Source: a virus. Taken from it: a stretch of 23,660 bases of DNA. Of the stretch, positions 9,701 to 20,327 are shown in pieces (positions within the stretch are counted from its first letter, which is position 1; the number at the start of each line of letters is the position of its first letter). The stretch is taken from IMG/VR virus record IMGVR_UViG_3300020395_000107, positions 1 through 23,660 of that record. The stretch is one strand, 5' to 3'. The notes under the pieces are model-generated. The model worked only from the letters and a program-made list of their open reading frames with translations, was not told the DNA's origin and did no database searches. Made by a program: the position numbers and the translations under genes.

Positions 9701-11021
9701 CAGTTAAGGTTCCTTTAAGTAAAGTATTACCATCAACTGTCAACTGTGAATCAAATTGTACATTATCAGTAGCATGAAGAGTTCCTGTTATGTCTAAATC
9801 ATATGATGGACTACTATTCTTAATACCAACCTGAGTCATCCTATAGATGTCACCACTACCATTATGACCCCAGAAATCCTGAGTTTGAATCTTTGCAATA
9901 GCAGTTGGATTTGCTGGATCAGGTATTGGTATTAAATTGTCTGTTCCAGTACCTTGGCTGTTTATTTGAGTAAAATTTAACCACTGAAATAATTGTGCTG
10001 TTCCATTCGTAGGTAAATCAACACCTTCATCCTGAACATACATTCCATCCAAAGAGATTGGAGATGCTTGTACCCAACGGATACCATTCCCATCTCTATT
10101 CAAATAATATCCATTTACACCTGCAGAATTAGCAGAGTCAATTATATTTCGATCAATCTTGATTGTTCCGTCTACATTTAATCTTAATTTACCATCACCA
10201 GAACTATATCCAGGTATATTACCAGGATCTGTACTACCAATACCAACTACACCATCATCACTAATAACAACAGATTCATCACCAGCACCAACTTGAACTC
10301 TAGAATAAGGTTGTGTAGTTCCTATACCAACTGAAGTTACTCCAGTGATAGGATCAGAAGCAAAAACAATAGATTTTTCTCTATATCCAACTTGGAATTT
10401 AGCATCAGGTAAGGTTGTTCCAATACCTACCCTACATGGATCTACTCTAACAGTTAAACATTTATTACCTAACCAATTAGTTCCCTTAGATTCAAAATCA
10501 ACTGCAGGTTGAGTAGTTCCTATTCCAACACTACCATTATCAGTAATTGTAAAATAATTATCACCAACTTGGAATTTAGCATCAGGTTGTGTAGTTCCAA
10601 TACCAACCAGACCATCATTAGTAACAACAAAAGAAGTATCAGCAACACCAACTTGGAAAAAAGCAACTGGTTGTGTAGTTCCTATACCAACCCTATTACC
10701 AGTTGTATAGTCTGTTGAAGTAGATATTGCAGTAAAAACAGTACCAGAAGCACCAACATTAAATCTCTGATAAACCGTCAAATAGTCCATATTGACTGGA
10801 CCATAGAAAGTCGAAACCCCTGATACGAAAAGATTCTTGACTGATAGATCACTACCACCCAAATCTATATTTGAATTATCACCAGTAGTACTTCCAAATA
10901 CATCAGCATATAACTTACCATAAACGTAAACATCATTAGTAAATTCAGTTACACCACTAATGGCATTTACTTGATCATTTTCATATTCGGGAGAAGGCCA
11001 GGTTTGGGAACTATCGGTCAT
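6744..11021 (-). CDS. Large repeat-rich tail fibre/baseplate protein with beta-helix domain (1425 aa)
   Basis: I choose the ATG at 11021-11019. It overlaps the upstream stop by one base (TAATG) and has GGAGG nine bases before it, whereas an in-frame TTG at 11030 lies within that ribosome site. The protein begins MTDSSQTWPSPEYENDQ. Residues about 105-270 carry VGIGTTQP...FQVG repeats, about 447-510 carry 12-residue DGATTLNSTLDV repeats, and about 510-850 carry ten 34-residue STDKDTGALVVEGGVGI units. Residues about 900-1200 begin TIWVTKNGCDTNSG and look like a pectate-lyase-type parallel beta-helix. A domain with GxYxxxxPP and SGRNY follows, and the end, GRDFNRAIQAQLTPLILALR, looks like a conserved C-terminal module of marine T4-like structural proteins. 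It probably forms a long fibre; enzymatic activity of the helix is not supported by visible catalytic residues. Confidence 0.8.
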   Translation of the reverse strand: MTDSSQTWPSPEYENDQVNAISGVTEFTNDVYVYGKLYADVFGSTTGDNSNIDLGGSDLSVKNLFVSGVSTFYGPVNMDYLTVYQRFNVGASGTVFTAISTSTDYTTGNRVGIGTTQPVAFFQVGVADTSFVVTNDGLVGIGTTQPDAKFQVGDNYFTITDNGSVGIGTTQPAVDFESKGTNWLGNKCLTVRVDPCRVGIGTTLPDAKFQVGYREKSIVFASDPITGVTSVGIGTTQPYSRVQVGAGDESVVISDDGVVGIGSTDPGNIPGYSSGDGKLRLNVDGTIKIDRNIIDSANSAGVNGYYLNRDGNGIRWVQASPISLDGMYVQDEGVDLPTNGTAQLFQWLNFTQINSQGTGTDNLIPIPDPANPTAIAKIQTQDFWGHNGSGDIYRMTQVGIKNSSPSYDLDITGTLHATDNVQFDSQLTVDGNTLLKGTLTVNQATDLDATLNVDGATTLNSTLDVDGATTLNSTLDVDGATTLNDTLDVDGATTLNNTLDVDGLTTFNDTTDASSPNNASVQIDGGLGIVKKLYVGNDTIIEGTTESTDKDSGALIVDGGAGIEKNVNIGGALKVDSTTVSTDCTTGSGIFAGGVGIQGDLNVCGDEHIFGTTESTDKDTGALVVEGGVGIEKKLNVGGVAKVWDQTDASDKDTGALIVEGGVGIEKKLFVGDDAKILGTTESSDKDTGALVVEGGVGIEKKLFVGDDAKILGTTESTDKDTGALVVEGGVGIEKKLNVGDDAKIFGTTESTDKDTGALVVEGGVGIEKKLNVGDDAKIFGTTESSDKDTGALVVEGGVGIEKKLNVGDDAKIWGDTQSDDKDTGALVVEGGVGIEKNLNVGENTKLIGTLELENHIIDYFNSNGVGICKTDYRLSSFNDGVGAGVSWRPSGVQTKRTIWVTKNGCDTNSGLLEGDAKHTIGAAAAIAQEGDTIKVRSGIYVENNPIGLRTDVAVSGEDLRLVTLIPKNTNKDFFHVRRGCLVENLSFSGETLATTHVGCGAVAFPPTLASVNAGTDFQAVDGYTPLGPANEGSTGRYKSPYVRNCTNFMTASVGMKINGDHCDANFSGTNNLGQDIKSMVCDSFTQYNESGIGVSLTNNAYAQLVSIFTIGCDKGIYCDTGGQCDLTNSNSSFGNYGLYSNGYGSVEFDGVMQTTSIAESDVFEVTNVRDFNSPRQFRTPFDGQGVYFHLDMTDFEDTPATATITQPLQLVRSLKITNGGNPGEYSASAPPIITVDQGPLGPEGILPEFSPNVSAAGTITSIDVINSGRNYLPTQNITITIPGSATADVDTDPILYTVSEATGHDNVGFTAITMNEFIPYEVKAGTKVELVRLSRIITSSHSFEYIGAGVDLNTANPFQGGKPIPEQEVVAINGGQCPFTSTDQKGNFRIGDGLTIDQTTSTIRGRDFNRAIQAQLTPLILALR
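8478..9492 (-). repeat. Ten tandem 34-residue (102-base) repeats
   Basis: Ten in-register units of 34 codons are visible. The consensus contains TTES-(T/S)-DKDTGAL-(V/I)-VEGGVGIEKKL followed by (N/F)-VGDDAKI. Central units are nearly identical at DNA level, while the first three translated units (at the right end) and the last one have diverged, as expected if the array expands and contracts from its middle. Confidence 0.9.
9493..9680 (-). repeat. Five tandem 12-residue (36-base) repeats
   Basis: Five units related to DGATTLNSTLDV precede the 34-residue array in the protein. Two of them are identical in protein and nearly so in DNA, with the eighth residue varying between S, D and N. Confidence 0.85.
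10220..10705 (-). repeat. VGIGTTQP repeat region in the fibre N-terminal third
   Basis: Six spaced copies of VGIG-(T/S)-(T/D)-xP are present, most followed by a FQVG or VQVG phrase. Spacing varies with inserted loops, so this is a degenerate beta-repeat rather than an exact tandem array. Confidence 0.75.
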
Positions 11022-11563
11022 TAACCCCAACCTCCAAGTACTTTATCGAGTCCATCAACACCAATTTTAGTTCCTTTAGCAACAAGACCAGCAAAAGTAA
11101 CATCTCTTGGTGCTAGATTACCTGCAAGAGCATCACAATTAGCAATTGCAGACCTAAGTATTATTTTATTGCAAGCAGATAAATTAATATCACCACCAGC
11201 ATTTAAATCAATATCTTCATCAGCATCAATTATAATATTTTTACCAGTTATTCTAATATCACCATTTGATTGAGCAGTAATTGTTACATCACCATTTCTA
11301 CCAATAATATTAATAGAGCAACCATTACTCATTTTTTCTCCACCTACAAGATCAATAGTTTGATCATTGTAAACATTAAGAAGTCCACCATCATTCATTG
11401 AAATGGTACTTGTATTATTATCTTTACCTTGTCCAAAAATAGAATAAACGGTAGCACCATTCTCACCCATTTCTGGATTTCCTGATTCTATCCTAAAGTG
11501 AGGTCCATATGAGTCATATTGCCTCAGTTGCCAATTTTGTTTGTCAGCTGGTCTTTCTGCCAT
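11021..11563 (-). CDS. Baseplate central spike, beta-helix needle protein (180 aa)
   Basis: The probable role is the needle below the baseplate hub that first touches or punctures the host envelope. Residues about 95-140 show a regular alternation of small, hydrophobic and Gly/Asp residues (NGDVTITAQSNGDIRITG, then DADEDIDLNAGGDINLSA). This is the pattern of the intertwined triple-stranded beta-helix in the C-terminal part of T4 gp5 and of VgrG proteins. The N-terminal part (MAERPADKQNWQLRQYDSYG) is unlike T4 gp5. The gene follows the gp5 gene, which lacks such repeats, so the two together would equal one T4 gp5 spike. A GATAAATA octamer lies 21 bases before the ATG. No PAAR-type cap motif is visible. 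A gp5.4-like label is possible but not demonstrated. Confidence 0.75.
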   Translation of the reverse strand: MAERPADKQNWQLRQYDSYGPHFRIESGNPEMGENGATVYSIFGQGKDNNTSTISMNDGGLLNVYNDQTIDLVGGEKMSNGCSINIIGRNGDVTITAQSNGDIRITGKNIIIDADEDIDLNAGGDINLSACNKIILRSAIANCDALAGNLAPRDVTFAGLVAKGTKIGVDGLDKVLGGWG

Positions 11564-11584
11564 ATTTTAAAGTCCTGTATTGAT

Positions 11585-11592
11585 TATTTATC
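11585..11592 (-). promoter_or_regulatory. Late-promoter-like octamer GATAAATA
   Basis: Read on the - strand, GATAAATA begins directly after the gp5 TAA stop (11595-11593) and ends 21 bases before the spike ATG at 11563. It matches seven of eight positions of the T4 late consensus TATAAATA. It would give the spike and the downstream fibre genes their own late transcript. Confidence 0.65.
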
Positions 11593-13650
11593 TTAACTAA
11601 CACAATCAATAACTTGCTTGACTTCACCTTGGAATGGTGGTCTTGGCTTTAATTGTGGTTTTAATATAGCACCATAACCATTTTTAGTATTAATCGTCAA
11701 TTCTGGAAGATCCTTAATACCATTTACATTTGCTACTGCAGAATCTGGAGGAAGAACATTCAAAATTCTACCATCATCATCAACATAGATTGTGTATGGA
11801 TTTCCATCACCATCACTAATAGTATCATTTCTATCATAATCCTGACCAGGATTAACAACTATCACATGATCAACTGCTAATTGATCTGTTACTTGAGGAC
11901 CTTTTATAGGATAGTTTTCACCCTCAGAAACAACATAAATGTCAGTTACTTGTTGATATGTAGGAGAAGATTCATCATAATCAATAACTGCTCTAGCTAT
12001 TCCACCATACCCTTGACCACACTCATCAGTGATTTCTACAAATGGTGGAGTATTATATCCAGATCCACCACTTTCCATATCAATACCAATAAGACTTCCA
12101 GTTGCTGCAGCACCTTCACCAACAATAGAACCCAATATTGCTTTACCAATAGCACCTTTACCATTACTTCCAAATATATTAACTTTTACTCCAGCACAAC
12201 TTAATGGAGGACCTGCATAACATTCCCCAAGTGGACTCTTAAATCCAGGAACAGAAACACTTGGATTTAAGAAATCAAATACACCTAAAGACCCACCAGC
12301 AATACTTAAATCCTGAACACCACCAACTAAACTTTGAGTTAAACTATCTGCAGTATTTGCAGCACTTAAAATTTTATCAACAGAAATACCAAGAATATTT
12401 TTTGGACCTTTACCAATTACCCATTCATTCGTCTTCGCCTCAAGAGTCTTCTGTGGTTTATCACATTGTCCAACCTTAGCAATTGCTAACAAACCCTCTG
12501 CTTTTGATCTAAGGAATCCACCTAGACTAAATCCACCTAATATTTTACTTACACCACCTAAAAGAGGACCAAGTGCTTTGGTAATACCACCAATAATTTG
12601 ATTCATCAATCCACCTACAAATTGATCACCAATACAAGAAACAAAATTCTTCACATTATCCATCATACCTTTCAATAATCCTTTAATTGCATCACCCAAA
12701 CCACCAACTATATTATTAACAGCACATCCTAAGAAATTTTGAATAGCACCGATACCAGGAACCATAGCAGTTTGTGCTGCTGCACCTGCCCTTGCAGCAA
12801 TTGATCTACTCTTAGTAGCAGCAAGAACTTTTCCATAAACAGATTTATATAATTTATCTAATCCACCATTTAATTTAGGAGCTAATCCCTTGTAAGTTGA
12901 ATTAACCATATTACCAACTAAACCAGATGCTAATCCACTAATCTTATCAACCTTTTCACTAAGCATACCCATCTTTTGAGTTGCTGTTGAAAATGGAATT
13001 TTACTAACAAGAGATTCAACTTCTGCCTTTACTTTAGAAATTGTAGCAGATCCAGATGAACTACCAAATACAACAGTTTGACCTATAGCAGTACTAACTG
13101 CCCTTTCAGCAATTCCCGTTGCTTCTTCAATTTTCTTTGCTAATTCTGGAGAAACTGCTCTAGGTGATTTCTGTGCTTTCTTACCTGATTGATCTCCTAC
13201 TTCATTCTTAAGAATATATGTATTATCATTTTTAATTTTACTTGTATATCCAGTAAATGGAGTAAATGGACCTTTGTATTCATCACTAGGAGAATATGCA
13301 GTATTACCAAATATACCTATAATAACAGGTAATTGTGCATCATCACCATCTAAAAAGAATCCTAATACACTATCACCTGGTGATAATCTAAGTGATTTTG
13401 CACGATTCGCTTTACCAGATCCTGCTTGAGGTGATAATAATACTTGTGCCCAGGGAAGATCTTCATCTTTAAGTTCTACAGTATTTTGAGGATGATACCC
13501 CATAATACGAACTTTAACTCTATTTCCCCACGCAGCAGCAGTCTGGTTTAATTGATCCTCTTGAGCTTTCTCAGGTGCTACTTGACCGATCCACCATCTG
13601 AATCCGTCCCTACCAATAAAATTACTTTGTATTATAGATTCTTCTATCAT
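11593..13650 (-). CDS. gp5: Baseplate hub gp5-like protein, OB-fold, no lysozyme domain (685 aa)
   Basis: This is a hub subunit expected to bind the gp27 ring. Residues about 10-120 resemble the gp5 OB-fold: GQVAPEKAQ, VKVRIMGYHP, DLPWAQVLLSP, a loop, then LRLSPGDSVLGFFLDGDDAQLPVIIGIFGN. This pattern is shared by gp5 and VgrG-type spike proteins. T4 gp5 continues with a lysozyme domain and a beta-helix; neither is visible here. Instead residues about 150-480 are Ala/Gly/Ser-rich with several hydrophobic stretches. From about residue 530 there is a Gly-rich domain with GGSGYNTPPFVEI and GYGGIARAVI, then SEGENYP and NPGQDYDRND. The spike is encoded by the next gene. The first bases overlap the gp27 stop as ATGA, indicating translational coupling. 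Confidence 0.85.
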   Translation of the reverse strand: MIEESIIQSNFIGRDGFRWWIGQVAPEKAQEDQLNQTAAAWGNRVKVRIMGYHPQNTVELKDEDLPWAQVLLSPQAGSGKANRAKSLRLSPGDSVLGFFLDGDDAQLPVIIGIFGNTAYSPSDEYKGPFTPFTGYTSKIKNDNTYILKNEVGDQSGKKAQKSPRAVSPELAKKIEEATGIAERAVSTAIGQTVVFGSSSGSATISKVKAEVESLVSKIPFSTATQKMGMLSEKVDKISGLASGLVGNMVNSTYKGLAPKLNGGLDKLYKSVYGKVLAATKSRSIAARAGAAAQTAMVPGIGAIQNFLGCAVNNIVGGLGDAIKGLLKGMMDNVKNFVSCIGDQFVGGLMNQIIGGITKALGPLLGGVSKILGGFSLGGFLRSKAEGLLAIAKVGQCDKPQKTLEAKTNEWVIGKGPKNILGISVDKILSAANTADSLTQSLVGGVQDLSIAGGSLGVFDFLNPSVSVPGFKSPLGECYAGPPLSCAGVKVNIFGSNGKGAIGKAILGSIVGEGAAATGSLIGIDMESGGSGYNTPPFVEITDECGQGYGGIARAVIDYDESSPTYQQVTDIYVVSEGENYPIKGPQVTDQLAVDHVIVVNPGQDYDRNDTISDGDGNPYTIYVDDDGRILNVLPPDSAVANVNGIKDLPELTINTKNGYGAILKPQLKPRPPFQGEVKQVIDCVS

Positions 13651-14960
13651 TTTTTCTTAGGTCCGAATGTATCTCTTAATAAAGTTAATGAAGTATAAGA
13701 TCCAGTACTATCAAAATAATGACATAGTTCCTTAATCATATATAGTCCACTTTGCTCATTATCAACTTTAACACTCTTCTCCAAATTAACACTAGAAAAT
13801 TTGCATTTTATTAAATCACCAGCTTTTAAATTAGTATTTGAAGGAATCATCATACTTATAGTTTGAGTTGTTATTAATCCATACCTCATCATAGTTTGAG
13901 ATTGGATTTTAGCTGGATCTGCATTACTCTTTGTAGATGCATTCTTCTCTAATGTTCCAATATCAAGTACAGCAGTAATATTTCTACTAGGAACATCACC
14001 TAAAGTCTTATCACTATCATTATCTAATCCTGGTAAGGATACTTGTTTACCTAAATTTTCTGCCTTTCCTGCATAATTTTCTAATTTAAATAACCCCTTT
14101 TCAGGATTAGTGTATGTAAAATTAAGTGGATTAAAAAATATTCTATGACTACAAAATGCACCATGTTTTAATTTTCCCATCATATCTTGATTTTTATCTG
14201 TAGCATATTTTAATATTCTATAATCGTTAATTGGATTATTGTGGTCAATATCACCAGGAGTAAAAATATACTCCTTTTTATATGGTTTTTGAGCAATTAA
14301 TTGATCTATAGATTTAAACTTATATCCATCTTTAGTTTCAAAAAATACATATCCTGCTGTTGCATCTTGACCAGAAATTGTACCTGGTACAGATTTTGAT
14401 GCCAACCACATTAAAACTGTAAATGGTTTTCTCAAATTACCAAGAAATCCGTATGGATTTTCAGTTTTATCACACTCAATATTCTTTTTTGATTTTAAAT
14501 AATTTGTAACTATATCTTTTACACTATCAGAGATTGAAAAAGATGCTGGATATTTTTTACCAACTCTAGATGTTTCATTAGATAATGCTTCTCTTGGAAC
14601 TAAATTTAAAGTAAATGCCTCCTTTTCATTATCAACAATAACATTTGTAATACTAGAAACAAACCAAGGAGATTTAATAAAATCTAATCCTGGATTATCA
14701 TTAGAATTACCTGCTATTTTTAAAGATACTCTTTCCCCACCTCTAAGAGGTAATCCATTATATATGGATTGCATATTACCGTCAGGTCCTTTAATACTAT
14801 TTCCAGTATTAGAAACTACTATTTTAGCGGTTAAATTTGGTGAAAATATATCTTCATAATAAAAAACACCAATCGTACCTCTAGATATATCTACCGATTT
14901 TGATCTATCAGCAGACTCTATTACAACTTCTTCGTAAATTGATTTATCTATAGCTGACAT
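13647..14960 (-). CDS. gp27: Baseplate hub subunit gp27
   Basis: gp27 forms the trimeric torus at the centre of the baseplate that holds gp5 and continues into the tail tube. The 437-residue length is somewhat above T4 gp27 (about 390). Near the N-terminus VDISRGTIGVFYYEDIFSP and LTAKIVVSNTG fit the first tube-like barrel, and PWFVSSITNVIVDNEKEAFTLNLVPREAL fits a continuing strand pair; PFTVLMWLASKSVPG lies in the middle. The late motif SGLYMIKELCHYFD is typical of hub proteins in which the last strands close the second barrel. The position directly before gp5 with a four-base overlap, and directly after the tape-measure-like genes with no gap, matches marine T4-like order. Identification rests on these motifs and strong context. 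Confidence 0.85.
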   Translation of the reverse strand: MSAIDKSIYEEVVIESADRSKSVDISRGTIGVFYYEDIFSPNLTAKIVVSNTGNSIKGPDGNMQSIYNGLPLRGGERVSLKIAGNSNDNPGLDFIKSPWFVSSITNVIVDNEKEAFTLNLVPREALSNETSRVGKKYPASFSISDSVKDIVTNYLKSKKNIECDKTENPYGFLGNLRKPFTVLMWLASKSVPGTISGQDATAGYVFFETKDGYKFKSIDQLIAQKPYKKEYIFTPGDIDHNNPINDYRILKYATDKNQDMMGKLKHGAFCSHRIFFNPLNFTYTNPEKGLFKLENYAGKAENLGKQVSLPGLDNDSDKTLGDVPSRNITAVLDIGTLEKNASTKSNADPAKIQSQTMMRYGLITTQTISMMIPSNTNLKAGDLIKCKFSSVNLEKSVKVDNEQSGLYMIKELCHYFDSTGSYTSLTLLRDTFGPKKK

Positions 14961-16472
14961 TTATGTAAAAGATAACTCTGATAATTGTACAAGTTCTACC
15001 ATATTTAATGAACTTCCAGAACTGGGTATAGATTTTTTAGATGATGTTGTCATTTGAGGTGGAGATGAAGATCCACCACGATTAATGGTATTATTCATCA
15101 TTATTACTGTTGTTTTTGGTTTTCTTTTACCACTGTTTATTTTCTCCAATTTAGTTTTCGCTTCATCAATTTTTGGTCTAATAATCTCCCCTATAGATTC
15201 AATATCTTTAGTAAATTCATCAATAGGAAAATCATTTAATTTATCAAACGGTAATTTACCAACCTGATCCATAGCAGCATTTATACCAGACATCATCTCA
15301 TCTGATTTAAAATTAGAAATAGCATCCTTAAAAGAATCTAAATCAATACCCTGTTTTGCTTCATTTAGCGATTCTTTTATTGAAGATAATTTACCACTAT
15401 TAAACATTTTTAAAAATTCTTTATTCTTTTCTGCTATTTCTTTTTGAATAACAAATTCACCTTTAGTTAATTTTGCTGGAATTTGATCAATTCCACTTAC
15501 ACCTTTAACTTCACCACCCTTATTGAACATAGTGAATCCACTCTGATCAAGAGCCTTATCTTGTTCTGCATCTATTTCACCAGAAGTATCTGAACCATCT
15601 AATCCTCTTACATCTGGACCTTTATCTAAATCTTCAGGTTTTGGTGCAACTTCAACTCCTTCAATATTTTCTTCAGGTTTATTTTGTTCTGATTCATCTT
15701 CTTCAACTTCATTCTTCTCATCAGTAGAAGGTTCTTCTTGTTGCTCTTCTTCAGGTTCTGGATTTGGAAATAAATCAAGAACATCCCACCATTGATTGTC
15801 ACCACCATCAGGATCAATATCAAAAGATGGCAAATTAAAAGTCTTTGGATCCGATAGTTCTTTGTATGCACCTAAGAATTGTTTATTTAATTTGAAAAAT
15901 CCAGACTCCGTTTTTTCTAATTCTTCTTTTAATTTCTTTTCTTCACTATCAATCTCAATTCCAGTTATTTGTCTTAAAACTCCACCTAACTGTTCACCAA
16001 ATCCAAGAAGTACATCTCTAACATTACCAATAAAATTAGTTAATACTGAAACTGTTTTTTGAATATTTGTAATTAATTGAGTTACACCTCTAATTATTGA
16101 AGGTAAAGTTCTAATTAACCATCCAATTAATATAATTCCAAAGAAGTCTAATATTCGACCAAGAAATCCTTTAGTACTAGTAGAAAGTATACTTCCCTGC
16201 TTTTTAATAACTCCTCCTGCTGTTGCTGACTCAATTTCATCTTCTCTTTGTCTTCTTCTAACAGCCTCTCTTCTCTTTCGGAAGAACTTATTGTCATTCC
16301 CTATAAGAGTTCTCTTAAACTGATTTGATTCACCCGTTTGTTTAACAATATCAGACGCATTTTTTCCAGCATCACGTAAACCTTTACCAAAATTACCAAC
16401 AGATTCCCTTATACCCTTAATACTAAGAGATGATTTAAATAAAGAATTTCTAACTGCTTGCTTATTTGACAT
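14961..16472 (-). CDS. Tape-measure-like tail protein, second of a pair (503 aa)
   Basis: The probable role is a tape measure or hub-associated protein inside the tail tube. Residues 1-65 are polar, 64-78 are very basic (RKRREAVRRRQR), and 102-135 form a hydrophobic segment with GFLGR and GWL that could span a membrane. Residues about 235-272 are strongly acidic. Residues about 318-360 contain GGEVKGVSGIDQIPAKLTKG followed by EFVIQKEIAEKN, close to the G-x-D-x-(V/I)-PA-x-LT-x-GEFV motif common in tape measure proteins. The short C-terminus ends in LVQLSELSFT. Composition and hydrophobic core resemble the 528-residue protein encoded just upstream, separated by one base. The start directly follows that gene's stop, and its own stop abuts the gp27 ATG. 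T4 places gp29 in a similar gene neighbourhood. Confidence 0.7.
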   Translation of the reverse strand: MSNKQAVRNSLFKSSLSIKGIRESVGNFGKGLRDAGKNASDIVKQTGESNQFKRTLIGNDNKFFRKRREAVRRRQREDEIESATAGGVIKKQGSILSTSTKGFLGRILDFFGIILIGWLIRTLPSIIRGVTQLITNIQKTVSVLTNFIGNVRDVLLGFGEQLGGVLRQITGIEIDSEEKKLKEELEKTESGFFKLNKQFLGAYKELSDPKTFNLPSFDIDPDGGDNQWWDVLDLFPNPEPEEEQQEEPSTDEKNEVEEDESEQNKPEENIEGVEVAPKPEDLDKGPDVRGLDGSDTSGEIDAEQDKALDQSGFTMFNKGGEVKGVSGIDQIPAKLTKGEFVIQKEIAEKNKEFLKMFNSGKLSSIKESLNEAKQGIDLDSFKDAISNFKSDEMMSGINAAMDQVGKLPFDKLNDFPIDEFTKDIESIGEIIRPKIDEAKTKLEKINSGKRKPKTTVIMMNNTINRGGSSSPPQMTTSSKKSIPSSGSSLNMVELVQLSELSFT

Positions 16473-16473
16473 A

Positions 16474-18060
16474 TTACGCTAACGATACTCCATAGAATTT
16501 TGATGCTAAAACAGTTGGATTGTCAAGATTTTTAGACATTATAAAGGGAAGAGTATTTCCTTGAGATCTAGGAGGTGGACTAGCAGAAGCACCACCACCA
16601 TCATTCCCACCACCAATTTGTTGATTACTTGTAATTATATTTGGTGATGGTTCTTCCAAAGAAGATATATTTTCTGCAACATTAACTTCTCTTTTCTTAC
16701 CTTCAAATAAACCACCTTTCTTATCAAAATCAAATGCATCACCAGTAACAAAATCAGCAGTTCCTTTAACAATTCTCTGTCCTGTAGAATCTCCTCTCTT
16801 ATCAAAATCAGTTAATCCACCAGTTAGAAAATCACCAAATCCAGCAAGACCTCTCATAAACCCTTGTGGTTTATTTGATTCATTTGCTAATTCTCTTTCC
16901 CTGATAAGATCTTCTTCTGTTATTGGAGTCATCATTGATGGCATAATATTTCCATCACCAACTTCAGAAGATATATTTTCATCAGTAGATTGACTGGTAT
17001 TCTCACCACTAATATTAGAACCTTTACTCTTAGGTTCTCCAATAAGTAAACCACGAGTAGTTGAAAATACTAAAATATCTGATAATATTTTTCTAATAAG
17101 ACTAACTTTAGGACCCATAGCCCTATCAACTATTATAGATGCACTACCAGCCATAATATTTGCTAGAGCTGCATTTTCTCTTCCCTCAGCCGCATCAAAC
17201 ATATATGAAATTCCACCACCCAAAACACCACCAGTTATCCTAGATCCTGTTTTCCCTCCAATTGCTTGAGTAACTTTATTTCCACTTTGTTGTGCTGCAG
17301 TTCTCGTAATATTTTGAGTAGCAGCATTAGTAAGACCTGTAGCACCTCTTGTAGCAATTCCTTTAAAACCCCGCTTTAAAACATTAATTAAAGCTTTAAC
17401 TGGTGCCAATATTAAATTACCAGCAACTGCCCTAAGAACATTACCACCTAAAAGTCCTACACTCTGAACTAATCTACCAAATGCTAATTTAGTAGCAATA
17501 AGAGCACCACCTACTATTAATAATCCTTTTATAGTATCATTTCTTATCTTTTTGAATAGAGTAATATTACCATCAGATCTCGCTATGAGCATCCGAACAA
17601 TCTTATTACTCAACCATCCACCAACCATTATAAAGAGGAAATTAGATAATCTACCTAATATTCCCTGTGCCTTTGCTGCTATTCTTTTAGCTGGAGAAAG
17701 TAAAGCATTTTGTATCTTTGCTTCTATCTGACTTTCCTTTCCTTCTCTTAATCCTTGTTCTGCTAATTGTCTATCTCTTGCTTGCTTCGCTGCTTCTCTT
17801 TGCTGCTCTATCCTATCAGCAATTTCTAAATTAGATTTAATTACAGATAATGAAAAATTTAATCTACCTACATTCTCACTAATAGAAGATAACTGTTGTG
17901 ATACAGTGCTTAATGTTAAGGAATTTTGAGATATTAAATTCGTTGTTATTGTATCTGGTTCAGTTGTTGGGGGAGTAGGTCGTCCCGCAAAGACACTAGA
18001 AGATACCGTATTCCTAACGGCACTAATTCCTCCTGATATTGGTGATGCTATTTCAGCCAT
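16474..18060 (-). CDS. Tape-measure-like tail protein, first of a pair (528 aa)
   Basis: The probable role is a tape measure or hub-linked internal tail protein. Residues about 40-115 are helical and coiled-coil-like with many Q, E and R. Residues 133-158 are a hydrophobic core with the pattern GxLGRxxxFxxIxxxGWL, matching residues 102-119 of the next protein. Further hydrophobic stretches follow around 178-215 (GLLIVGGALIATKLAFG). The C-terminal part has two related phrases, DFLTGGLTDFDKRGD and DFVTGDAFDFDKKGG, then a Gly/Ser/Pro-rich linker and a short hydrophobic end. The ATG overlaps the end of gp51 by eight bases (ATGGCTGA), which implies translational coupling. No close T4 counterpart is recognisable; gp29 is the functional analogue by position and composition. 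Confidence 0.7.
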   Translation of the reverse strand: MAEIASPISGGISAVRNTVSSSVFAGRPTPPTTEPDTITTNLISQNSLTLSTVSQQLSSISENVGRLNFSLSVIKSNLEIADRIEQQREAAKQARDRQLAEQGLREGKESQIEAKIQNALLSPAKRIAAKAQGILGRLSNFLFIMVGGWLSNKIVRMLIARSDGNITLFKKIRNDTIKGLLIVGGALIATKLAFGRLVQSVGLLGGNVLRAVAGNLILAPVKALINVLKRGFKGIATRGATGLTNAATQNITRTAAQQSGNKVTQAIGGKTGSRITGGVLGGGISYMFDAAEGRENAALANIMAGSASIIVDRAMGPKVSLIRKILSDILVFSTTRGLLIGEPKSKGSNISGENTSQSTDENISSEVGDGNIMPSMMTPITEEDLIRERELANESNKPQGFMRGLAGFGDFLTGGLTDFDKRGDSTGQRIVKGTADFVTGDAFDFDKKGGLFEGKKREVNVAENISSLEEPSPNIITSNQQIGGGNDGGGASASPPPRSQGNTLPFIMSKNLDNPTVLASKFYGVSLA

Positions 18061-18232
18061 TGTTTGATTGTTGTGCCTTTAAATTTTCTTCCTCAATGTA
18101 ATTTTGTAAAAGTGAAAGATAAATTTCCCTTTCCCACGGAATCATATTCTCAAGCTCTGTTAAACTATATTTATGGTGTTGCATTAAGGCAAAATTTATC
18201 TTGTAGTATGACGCAAGATCTTCATGAGCCAT
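18053..18232 (-). CDS. gp51: gp51-like baseplate hub assembly protein, very short (59 aa)
   Basis: This small frame starts at an ATG two bases after the gp26 stop and ends with a TGA inside the first codons of the 528-residue gene. It encodes a peptide beginning MAHEDLASYYKINFALMQHH. The central phrase HHKYSLTELENMIPWEREIY is the recognisable conserved part of T4-like gp51 proteins. In T4, gp51 is needed to build the baseplate hub but is not found in the finished particle, and it is much longer (about 250 residues from memory), so only a core helix region remains here. Position between gp26 and the tape-measure-like genes repeats the T4 order 26-51. The tight junctions on both sides and the conserved phrase make it a real gene despite its size. 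Confidence 0.8.
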   Translation of the reverse strand: MAHEDLASYYKINFALMQHHKYSLTELENMIPWEREIYLSLLQNYIEEENLKAQQSNNG

Positions 18233-18234
18233 AC

Positions 18235-18954
18235 TTATCCGAAAAAACTCTGTAATCCCTCCAATACAACTTCATTTTCCTTTTTAGTATTAGGATTAAT
18301 AACCTTTACTGTATGTGATAATTTAGGCATAGTTTCAAAGAAATTTTCAATTTCCTTAAATTGCTTAGAACTTAATTGTTCAACAAATTGAGACAATTCT
18401 TTCTTAGTGCAATCTTCCGCAGTCCAAGATTCTTCTTCAGAATAAACTTGTTCAATACAAGATGCAATCAAATCAAAAGTATCATCAACATTCATCTCTG
18501 TTGCAGAAGCAAAATTATTTTTAATAAATTCATCTAATGATGGATACTTCATCCTTAAGGTTAATGTATCATCTAACTTAATATCTTGAGAATGATTTTT
18601 ATCAATCTTTATTTGAATATCATCTAAGTTAATAAGTGCTGGTACTTGAGTCTTGCCATCATCAGGACAAGTTACCATAACTTCAACATCTTCTCCCACA
18701 GATTTACCTCTGATATTAAGGAATAGATATTCAATATCAAATGTAGATAATGCAGAAATTTTAACTCCTCTTGTTGTAATACAAGATGAAATTACATCTT
18801 TCACAGCATTTGCTATCATTTTAGTATCTTCGCTTTCCATCGCCAAGATAAGTATTTTTTCTTCCTTAACTAAAAAAGGTCTAAATTTAATTTTCTTTTT
18901 TGTAGAAGGAATAACCAACTCATAAGATGGTGTTGCAATCTTTGGTAAAGGCAT
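18235..18954 (-). CDS. gp26: Baseplate hub subunit gp26
   Basis: This is the T4 gp26 family baseplate hub component. The signature near the N-terminus is PSYELVIPSTKKKIKFRPF followed by LVKEEKILILAMES. Further along are CITTRGVKISALSTFDIEYL, LNIRGKSVGE and the phrase VTCPDDGK. The 239-residue length is slightly above T4 gp26 (208). It has no signal peptide or membrane segment. The gene opens a hub transcription unit: a perfect TATAAATA lies 22 bases before the ATG, and the gp51, tape-measure-like, gp27 and gp5 genes follow with gaps of two bases or less. The ATG at 18954 gives the canonical N-terminus. Identity is firm from motif and gene order; the exact biochemical role within the hub is known only for T4. 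Confidence 0.9.
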   Translation of the reverse strand: MPLPKIATPSYELVIPSTKKKIKFRPFLVKEEKILILAMESEDTKMIANAVKDVISSCITTRGVKISALSTFDIEYLFLNIRGKSVGEDVEVMVTCPDDGKTQVPALINLDDIQIKIDKNHSQDIKLDDTLTLRMKYPSLDEFIKNNFASATEMNVDDTFDLIASCIEQVYSEEESWTAEDCTKKELSQFVEQLSSKQFKEIENFFETMPKLSHTVKVINPNTKKENEVVLEGLQSFFG

Positions 18955-18976: not shown

Positions 18977-18984
18977 TATTTATA
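18977..18984 (-). promoter_or_regulatory. Late promoter TATAAATA before gp26
   Basis: On the - strand this is a perfect match to the T4 late consensus TATAAATA. It lies in the 44-base gap between the gp54-like stop (18999) and the gp26 ATG (18954), 22 bases before that ATG. It is the strongest of the six octamers and should drive the hub genes. Confidence 0.8.
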
Positions 18985-19892: not shown

Positions 19893-20327
19893 ATGGCTTA
19901 TAAAGGAAAATATCGACCATCTCACCCACGAAAGTATAAAGGTGACCCAACAGAAATAACCTTTAGATCATTATGGGAAAGAAAATTTATGATTTACTGT
20001 GATTCCAATGTTAATGTATTAGAATGGGCAAGTGAAGAAATTGCTATTCCATATCGTGGTCCTGATGGAAAACCACATCGATACTTTCCAGACTTCTATA
20101 TGAAAGTAAAAGAAAGTAATGGTTTAATAAAAAGGTATATTATAGAAGTTAAACCACTAAAACAATGTGCTCCACCCAAAAAACCAAAAAGACAAACTAA
20201 AGGATATATTCGTGAAGCGTTTGAATATGCTAGAAATCAAGCAAAGTGGAAAGAAGCGAGAGAATGGTGTGCTGATAGACAATGGGAATTTAAAGTGGTT
20301 ACTGAAAAAGAATTAGGTATAAAATAA
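19893..20327 (+). CDS. gp4: Head completion protein gp4, nuclease-fold
   Basis: T4 gp4 is added to the DNA-filled head before tail joining. The 144-residue length matches T4 gp4 (150). The sequence has the nuclease-like core found in this family and in TnsA-type enzymes: E29 in WERKFM, D67 in YFPDFY, and E85-x-K87 in YIIEVKP, in the right order and spacing. The opening MAYKGKYRPSHPRKYKGDPT is basic and typical of the family. A late-promoter-like octamer lies 24 bases before the ATG, and the stop overlaps the next ATG by one base (TAATG). Catalytic activity is not proven for the family as far as I recall, but the acidic residues are intact here. Confidence 0.9.
   Translation: MAYKGKYRPSHPRKYKGDPTEITFRSLWERKFMIYCDSNVNVLEWASEEIAIPYRGPDGKPHRYFPDFYMKVKESNGLIKRYIIEVKPLKQCAPPKKPKRQTKGYIREAFEYARNQAKWKEAREWCADRQWEFKVVTEKELGIK

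Follow-up and report, generated by a model that had tools for sequence, protein, structure and literature searches.

A split gp5-type tail tip without a recognised lysozyme domain in a P-SSM2-like cyanomyovirus

How does a T4-like phage cross the bacterial wall if the protein labelled as its tail lysozyme appears to carry no lysozyme? The question is raised by IMG/VR record IMGVR_UViG_3300020395_000107, analysed here over its entire 23,660 bases (the window; probably a genome fragment), which is a piece of a P-SSM2-like cyanomyovirus genome and encodes a 685-residue gp5-type protein followed by a separate 180-residue gene. The T4 counterpart is a single chain with an OB domain (residues 1–129), a lysozyme domain (174–339) and a beta-helix (389–575) (PMC7650644), the lysozyme domain having the catalytic residues E184, D193 and T199 (PMC7650644, PMC3004832). 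The best overall explanation for the window, to which we give a probability of about 0.7, is a split tip without a tip hydrolase, with two genes of the same module, X and Y, as hydrolase carriers in relatives and with that hydrolase lost or replaced in the window's clade.

The gp5-type adaptor, its needle gene and the hub

Both open reading frames (ORFs) are intact, the gp5-type gene at 11593..13650 and the needle gene at 11021..11563, on the minus strand, to which all coordinates of the tail module refer. By label, the 685-residue protein is a lysozyme: its PHROG match is phrog_1922, 'baseplate hub subunit and tail lysozyme' (expect value (E) 1e-140, residues 1–587), three more lysozyme-labelled PHROGs match only within residues 5–203, and its P-SSM2 relative PSSM2_019 (752 residues, 48% identity across the length) is recorded as 'T4-like baseplate hub and tail lysozyme'. 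Pfam returned only Gp5_OB at residues 58–159, below threshold (20.6 against a cut-off of 25 bits). A profile of 57 sequences (56 of 81 related loci plus the window) matched the gp5-like PDB chain 9f4a_BB (E 1.2e-4) over profile positions 44–143 only, with three other matches at E 0.4 or worse.

An AlphaFold2 model built on the 57-row alignment (mean predicted local distance difference test score (pLDDT) 67.5, predicted template modelling score (pTM) 0.46) places strands at residues 19–115, long helices at 168–393 and strands at 488–669. T4 gp5 ranked top in a Foldseek search with this model (1pdl_A, E 3.7e-5; 1k28_A, E 9.8e-5), and structure alignment put residues 15–152 on residues 6–128 of 1k28_A (Z 8.9, root-mean-square deviation 3.2, 94 residues aligned). 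This N-terminal OB domain of the T4 gp5 type (13195..13608, first to last aligned residue), for which gp27 binding is predicted, is the sole part matching T4 gp5. In place of the T4 lysozyme domain, the fold model and the 57-sequence alignment indicate a helical middle (residues 168–393; 12472..13149; helices from residue 200 onwards at 200–220, 223–279, 282–332, 338–365 and 376–393). The beta-helix sits in the next gene; the C-terminal part of the 685-residue protein (488–669; 11644..12189) is beta-rich, with pLDDT block means of 60–89 and an unsettled model fold, and its residues 594–669 weakly resemble a T4 gp18 domain (3fo8, Z 7.6, borderline). A sequence-only reading of the window had described an OB-fold protein with an Ala/Gly-rich middle and a GSGYxxPP C-terminal domain, which is borne out by 14.5% Gly and 10.3% Ala in residues 151–480 and by GSGYNTPP in the C-terminal part.

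That reading had also seen no lysozyme-like catalytic stretch, and here families, fold model and residue conservation agree. The T4-type lysozyme domain (PF00959) gave no match to the 685-residue protein, no catalytic pattern is conserved and the model is helical there. Only one histidine, H53 of the OB domain, is conserved in at least 85% of the 57 sequences, the next being H595 (39 of 57); E150 and D459 are the only conserved acidic residues of residues 150–480, and neither a histidine nor an acidic residue reaches 85% within the helical middle. Apart from gp5 proteins, aligned through their OB domain, no lysozyme chain stands among the structure matches listed for the model. The fold prediction proposed in the sequence-only reading yielded an OB match, a helical middle and no confident hydrolase fold. 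A lysozyme in the 685-residue protein was thus rejected, and Pfam and PDB profiles detected no hydrolase domain in this protein or in the 180-residue one. Because there is no family match, a fold match for the OB domain only and no conserved catalytic residue, we read the 685-residue chain as probably carrying no hydrolase, its helical middle being moderately modelled. Seven cysteines of the gp5-type proteins (309, 339, 396, 477, 485, 544 and 683), candidates for disulfides or metal binding, are conserved in at least 56 of the 57 sequences.

A separate 180-residue beta-helix gene with its own promoter had likewise been proposed, and both parts find support. Hydrophobic residues at a lag of eight are a mark of triple-stranded beta-helices; the 180-residue protein (phrog_3363) has 15 such pairs against 7.1 expected, a count reached in 0 of 2,000 shuffles. 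With a 44-row spike profile (43 of 56 loci plus the window), the matches were 8gra, a VgrG spike (E 8.6e-4), and 7b5h, which is All3320 from an Anabaena injection system (E 0.006); the same search also returned xylanase chains at E 0.62, taken as noise. Pfam gave nothing above cut-off for the 180-residue protein, the best weak match being DUF2345 (E 0.0024), a VgrG needle domain. With its octad repeat and its profile matches to spikes, the gene is predicted to encode a separate triple-stranded beta-helix needle.

The 29-nucleotide (nt) gap ahead of the needle gene contains the T4-late-type promoter motif GATAAATA at 11585–11592. The ATAAATA core is scarce in the window, with three sites against 13.3 in shuffles: one before the spike gene, one before gp26 and one inside the ORF at the gp51 position (18168–18174). 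We counted hub–spike gaps in 44 of the 56 spike loci, leaving out L026, L029 and L032, which have insertions, and some near-duplicate or cut loci. The motif is present in 35 of the 44, namely in all 35 gaps of at least 24 nt and in none of the nine of 0–4 nt. Eight of the nine short-gap loci have a hydrolase match at the Y position; the contig of the ninth, L075, does not reach Y.

Separate-spike relatives are found in 58 phage records, including P-SSM2, S-CAM7, ACG-2014f, S-SKS1 and S-SRM01, and a spike ORF in 56 of 81 loci. The spike directly follows the gp5-type gene in P-SSM2, S-CAM7, ACG-2014f and S-SRM01, and the gene in that place in S-SKS1. The split is therefore widespread among cyanophages and not special to this virus. 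Whole genes, including collagen-like fibre genes, stand between the gp5-type gene and the spike at L026:8608-12705, L032:6182-11170 and L029:8442-9191. The spike-position genes of P-SSM7 (L105:11520-12110) and MED4-213 (L104:11817-12686), directly after gp5, are annotated as Galactose-3-O-sulfotransferase and as tail lysozyme, respectively, and, judged by place only, are probably misannotated needles. PAAR matches occurred in 2 of 24 records (S-CRM01, and MED4-213 below cut-off); the window's clade, represented there by P-SSM2 and by fragments, gave none. The PAAR-motif protein of S-CRM01 (L106:12765-13058, E 1e-7) lies three genes after gp5.

The baseplate hub proper is the next gene upstream, of 437 residues (13647..14960; T4-GC 15), which the records consulted list as 'tail protein' or hypothetical. 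Its model (pLDDT 79.7, pTM 0.82) aligned with T4 gp27 (1k28_D) at Z 25.6 across 339 residues (Foldseek E 7e-17), a gp27 fold along the whole chain, and on this modelled fold we assign T4-GC 15 to gp27; the alignment of gp27-like proteins comprises 40 of 81 loci plus the window. The split of 'hub and spike' in the sequence-only reading consequently stands as a split, but the protein it called the hub is the gp5-type adaptor. As 339 of 437 residues lie on T4 gp27, there is little room for an inserted enzyme, and an insertion of the kind seen in phage A-1(L) was not supported. Sullivan and colleagues detected both gp5 and T4-GC15 in S-SM1 virions (PMC3037559).

Wall hydrolases in genes X and Y

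The baseplate genes of the window run gp26, gp51, X, Y, the 437-, 685- and 180-residue genes and fibres, which is the order in Prochlorococcus phage P-SSM2; this conserved order and the homologous proteins place the record in Kyanoviridae. Gene X (528 residues; 16474..18060) occupies the T4-GC 13 position and has hydrophobic stretches at residues 141–159 and 180–198. Gene Y (503 residues; 14961..16472), at the T4-GC 14 position, has a hydrophobic helix at 102–120 and a tape-measure-like DQIPAKLTKGEFV stretch; among relatives it is Y that most often bears the hydrolase. Kyte–Doolittle peaks of the hydrophobic stretches in X and Y are 1.8–1.9.

A hydrolase was recognised in X and/or Y in 10 of 14 named cyanophages, picked by hand from matches to the gp5-type and spike proteins. 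S-PM2 has Phage_lysozyme2 in X (E 7e-25) and M23 in Y (E 1e-15); Y carries Amidase_5 in S-CAM7 (E 2e-5; X outside the scan), Phage_lysozyme and M23 in ACG-2014f, M23 in S-B05 and S-SRM01, M15 in P-SSM7, and glucosaminidase and M15 in S-RIM2. X of MED4-213 has VanY, S-CRM01 has Phage_lysozyme in the only X/Y-type gene annotated there, and S-SKS1 has Phage_lysozyme2 in a gene placed by position. For some of these genes, the records already give the name peptidase or endolysin. With Pfam, no X/Y hydrolase was recognised in P-SSM2, P-SSM4, S-CAM9 or S-8S56, X of P-SSM4 being annotated endolysin without a Pfam match. Among the contigs, Pfam on 41 Y proteins (the window plus 40 of 77 loci) found Phage_lysozyme2 in two, M23 in two, and glucosaminidase, Phage_lysozyme and SLT in one each; on 39 X proteins (the window plus 38 of 76 loci) it found no hydrolase. 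Truncated, near-duplicate and some other sequences were left out by hand, both here and in the gp5-type, spike and gp27-like alignments. Outside the tail module, lysozyme-type ORFs, perhaps endolysins, were found in S-PM2, S-CAM7, S-8S56, ACG-2014f and S-CRM01, and none in P-SSM2 or P-SSM4 with both lysozyme families. Displacement of the wall enzyme from gp5 to elsewhere in the module is well supported in these relatives, where enzymes of the kind that the sequence-only reading had proposed to look for were indeed found.

Two proteins deserve mention in their own right. The X-position protein of S-PM2, S-PM2d207 (L091:4813-8313), has an ADP-ribosyltransferase match near its N terminus (PF01129, E 1.3e-5, residues 66–218) and a Phage_lysozyme2 domain at its C-terminal end. 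T4 Alt offers an ADP-ribosyltransferase-type comparison for an enzyme ejected into the host, and by this analogy the S-PM2 protein may possibly be ejected into the cyanobacterium. In Sinorhizobium phage phiM19, gp98 (L088:6542-8101) directly follows the gp5-type gene and has a Peptidase M15 domain (E 8e-19), by its sequence a further site at which a T4-like tip appears to keep its wall enzyme.

The window itself differs: neither Pfam nor seven profiles of our own gave a match of X or Y to a peptidoglycan hydrolase family above chance. Y also showed a tripeptidyl-peptidase match, which at E 0.015 reached only half its cut-off and was taken as noise. The seven profiles were built from cyanophage hydrolase domains, with one M15 seed from phiM19, so that seed proteins match by construction, and were run on 2,748 open frames of 110 sequences, which are regions rather than whole genomes except for P-SSM2. 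Matches were confined to X, Y and phiM19 gp98; the positive sequences are the named phages and loci L059, L061, L062, L063, L065, L066, L067, L071, L072 and L081, weakly so for L065, L067 and L071 (E 6e-6 to 2e-5); 69 of the 77 loci with a Y gene gave no match, and none was obtained in the window's clade.

The 53-row gp27 tree groups the window with P-SSM2 and 31 contigs in a clade of 33 rows (support 95/97). The tree is unrooted, several named rows have very long branches, and L075 was left out as its Y lies off the contig. None of the 33 rows of this clade has a recognised hydrolase, while all eight rows of a neighbouring clade have one (L065 and L067 by weak matches), the order of these clades being unresolved in the tree. 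The hydrolase label requires three changes on the tree against a mean of 14.5 after shuffling (0 of 500 as low). Three changes fit three losses, in the window's clade, in S-CAM9 with S-8S56 and in P-SSM4, among other possible mixes of gain and loss. On the window's side, 35 Y proteins share only two residues conserved at 80% beyond residue 137, and 33 X proteins only five beyond residue 180, so that no conserved enzyme domain is apparent in these later parts. Loss of the hydrolase in the window's clade is therefore likely.

P-SSM2, as the complete member of the clade, allowed a wider search. Its whole record gave no match to PF01551, PF18013, PF01832, PF00959, PF01464, PF05257, PF08291, PF02557 or PF00877. 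A Pfam scan of 109 P-SSM2 proteins, most of which are structural or lack a name, showed no peptidoglycan hydrolase among the best 25 of 33 families; seven of the 33, from 41 proteins in this first scan only, rank below a one-member family at E 1.3e-7 and lie outside that statement. A second scan, of 68 of the 84 proteins of at least 150 residues, gave 13 families and again no peptidoglycan hydrolase. The two scans passed over coding sequences with a named function, most ORFs of less than 100 residues, PSSM2_298 and most of PSSM2_028 (cut at region borders). No peptidoglycan hydrolase was found by Pfam in gp7 (5195 residues), PSSM2_113 or PSSM2_033, and PSSM2_150, annotated peptidase, had no Pfam match at E 0.05. 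The P-SSM2 gp7 (L098:6-15593), a wedge protein, contains a YHYH domain (PF14240, E 1e-24).

A model for the tip and its alternatives

We propose that a trimer of the gp27-like protein would hold a trimer of the gp5-type adaptor through the OB domain, both being presumed trimers, and that the separate beta-helix protein, transcribed from its own late promoter, would form the needle. By analogy with the T4 contraction and puncturing model (PMC3004832), tail contraction would then push the assembly of gp27, OB trimer and needle across the outer membrane. In many relatives X and Y, which may be ejected together with the DNA or ahead of it, would carry the hydrolase to the wall; this hydrolase would have been lost in the window's clade, or replaced by something unrecognised. 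The computed elements of this model are the OB domain, the gp27 fold, the octad periodicity, the promoter motif, the placement of hydrolases in relatives and the absence of the domain across the clade members examined. For the wall-crossing step itself in this clade, our first guess would be an unrecognised enzyme elsewhere in the virion and our second passage without a tail enzyme. Of the two routes named in the sequence-only reading, another enzyme or force, the former holds for many relatives through X and Y, and neither is established for the window's clade.

Several points weigh against this explanation. The model of the 685-residue protein is of middling confidence, and a small unusual fold within residues 150–480 is possible. 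The hydrolase negatives rest on known families, and over genomes the family searches are not exhaustive: the PF00959 genome search missed L072, in which our own profile finds a Y match, and one of the 41 Y proteins put through Pfam matches PF00959. P-SSM2 must lyse its host as a lytic phage, yet no endolysin was recognised in it either, so unrecognised hydrolases probably exist. The split is not seen in every cyanophage: in P-SSM4 and S-RIM2 the gene that follows gp5 is shorter than a spike would need, and no search was made there for a needle that is fused or has moved. The tape-measure motif D-IPA-LT-GEFV, taken strictly, was present in four of 41 Y proteins, in none of 39 X proteins and in none of 12 named proteins at the Y position, and X and Y are only weakly supported as tape-measure-type proteins.

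Where, then, might the wall be cut? Another virion protein outside the module, such as a fibre or a giant baseplate protein, is a possibility that we put somewhat short of even odds. An S8 subtilase-type protein, PSSM2_297, lies among the P-SSM2 tail-fibre genes (Peptidase_S8 match), and P-SSM2 also has a CBM_5_12 protein and the annotated peptidase PSSM2_150. However, S8 enzymes usually cut proteins, and the Pfam negatives for PSSM2_150 and for gp7, PSSM2_113 and PSSM2_033 also count against this reading. It is doubtful, if conceivable, that the clade crosses the wall without any tail-borne enzyme, by the force of tube and needle or through host remodelling enzymes and gaps. The tip module is otherwise complete in clade members in which no recognisable hydrolase domain was found, which favours such a crossing; but a missing match is not a missing enzyme, and an X/Y hydrolase persists in the neighbouring clade and in 10 of the 14 named cyanophages, which argues that it is useful in similar hosts. 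The corresponding history, in which the enzyme moved to ejected X and Y and was then dropped by the clade of P-SSM2 and the window, leaving a mechanical or host-enzyme crossing, would be no less doubtful.

An unrecognised hydrolase within the same module, whether in the helical middle or beta-rich end of the 685-residue protein or in the variable end of Y or X, seems unlikely to cut the peptidoglycan. The seven conserved cysteines speak for it, as does the lack of a recognised endolysin in P-SSM2, by which the clade probably uses hydrolases unknown to Pfam. Set against these are the lack of a histidine conserved at 85% outside the OB domain, the near absence of conserved acidic residues in the middle and of any conserved residues in the later parts of Y or X, and the lack of a standout enzyme among the structure matches listed for the model. 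That the split merely reflects an assembly error or a frameshift in what is really one fused gp5 gene is so improbable that we set this reading aside: nothing found speaks for it, and it is refuted by the relatives, since P-SSM2 has the same two-gene arrangement, spikes recur across loci and phage records, the gap holds a conserved promoter motif, and L026, L029 and L032 have whole genes between the two. The split tip, with its hydrolase displaced to X and Y in relatives and lost or replaced here, thus remains the explanation that we prefer.

Neighbouring genes and known systems

The rest of the module follows P-SSM2. A 59-residue ORF (18053..18232) is assigned to gp51 by place only, lying where gp51 lies in P-SSM2; next to it lies the gp26-like baseplate hub protein (18235..18954; PF12322, E 4e-77; phrog_150, E 9e-83), with the late-promoter motif TATAAATA ahead of it at 18977..18984. 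On the plus strand, a 144-residue ORF (19893-20327) matches the N-terminal domain of TnsA-like endonucleases (PF08722, E 1.5e-24) and sits at the position of the gp4 head-completion gene by P-SSM2 synteny. A tRNA search of the window found none. A 99% identical copy of the 685-residue protein is present on a 44.5-kb contig (L002).

These results bear on annotation as well as on mechanism. The label 'tail lysozyme', given to gp5 in many cyanophage records, is unfounded for the gp5-type proteins checked; a site for the wall enzyme is pointed to in 10 of 14 cyanophages, and T4-GC 15 is assigned to gp27 by fold. An ocean-virus clade emerges with an unexplained wall-crossing step that is testable in its cultured member P-SSM2, and neighbouring clades with and without an enzyme on the same tip offer a natural comparison. 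In the part of the open PMC literature that was consulted, we met no statement that gp5 is split and lacks a lysozyme or that the hydrolase is placed in X/Y; papers behind subscriptions, among them those on the S-PM2 and Syn9 genomes, lay outside this scope. Our additions are the pattern of X/Y carriers and its absence across the window's clade, the enzyme labels of X and Y being partly in the records already.

Compared with the T4 gp5–gp27 device (1k28), the window shares the gp27 fold, the OB adaptor domain and the beta-helix needle, but its needle is a separate gene and no lysozyme domain was found, whereas T4 has all of gp5 in one chain. The beta-helix needle of VgrG/DUF2345 spikes, from type VI secretion and extracellular contractile injection systems, resembles the 180-residue spike. 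VgrG, unlike the window, fuses gp27, OB and needle in a single chain, and the 685- and 437-residue models match the same VgrG chain, for example 8gra. A further likeness is P-SSM2 itself, in which PSSM2_014 to PSSM2_021 repeat the order gp26, gp51, X, Y, gp27-like, gp5-type, spike and fibre, likewise without a recognised hydrolase; it differs in its longer gp5-type protein and in diverged X and Y. S-PM2, ACG-2014f, S-RIM2, S-SRM01 and others share the gene neighbourhood, and the S-PM2 gp5-type protein also shows only Gp5_OB in Pfam, but differ in having M23, lysozyme, glucosaminidase, M15/VanY or amidase domains in X, in Y or in both. Finally, the Anabaena myophage A-1(L) also has a separate gp27-fold hub and an OB-plus-needle spike with the enzymes off the spike (PMC10966104). 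There, unlike in the window, whose gp27 shows none, the hub gp15 carries lysozyme, endoglucanase and peptidase domains (PMC10966104). With its enzymes on the hub and not on the spike, A-1(L) makes displacement of the enzyme within the tip known in kind.

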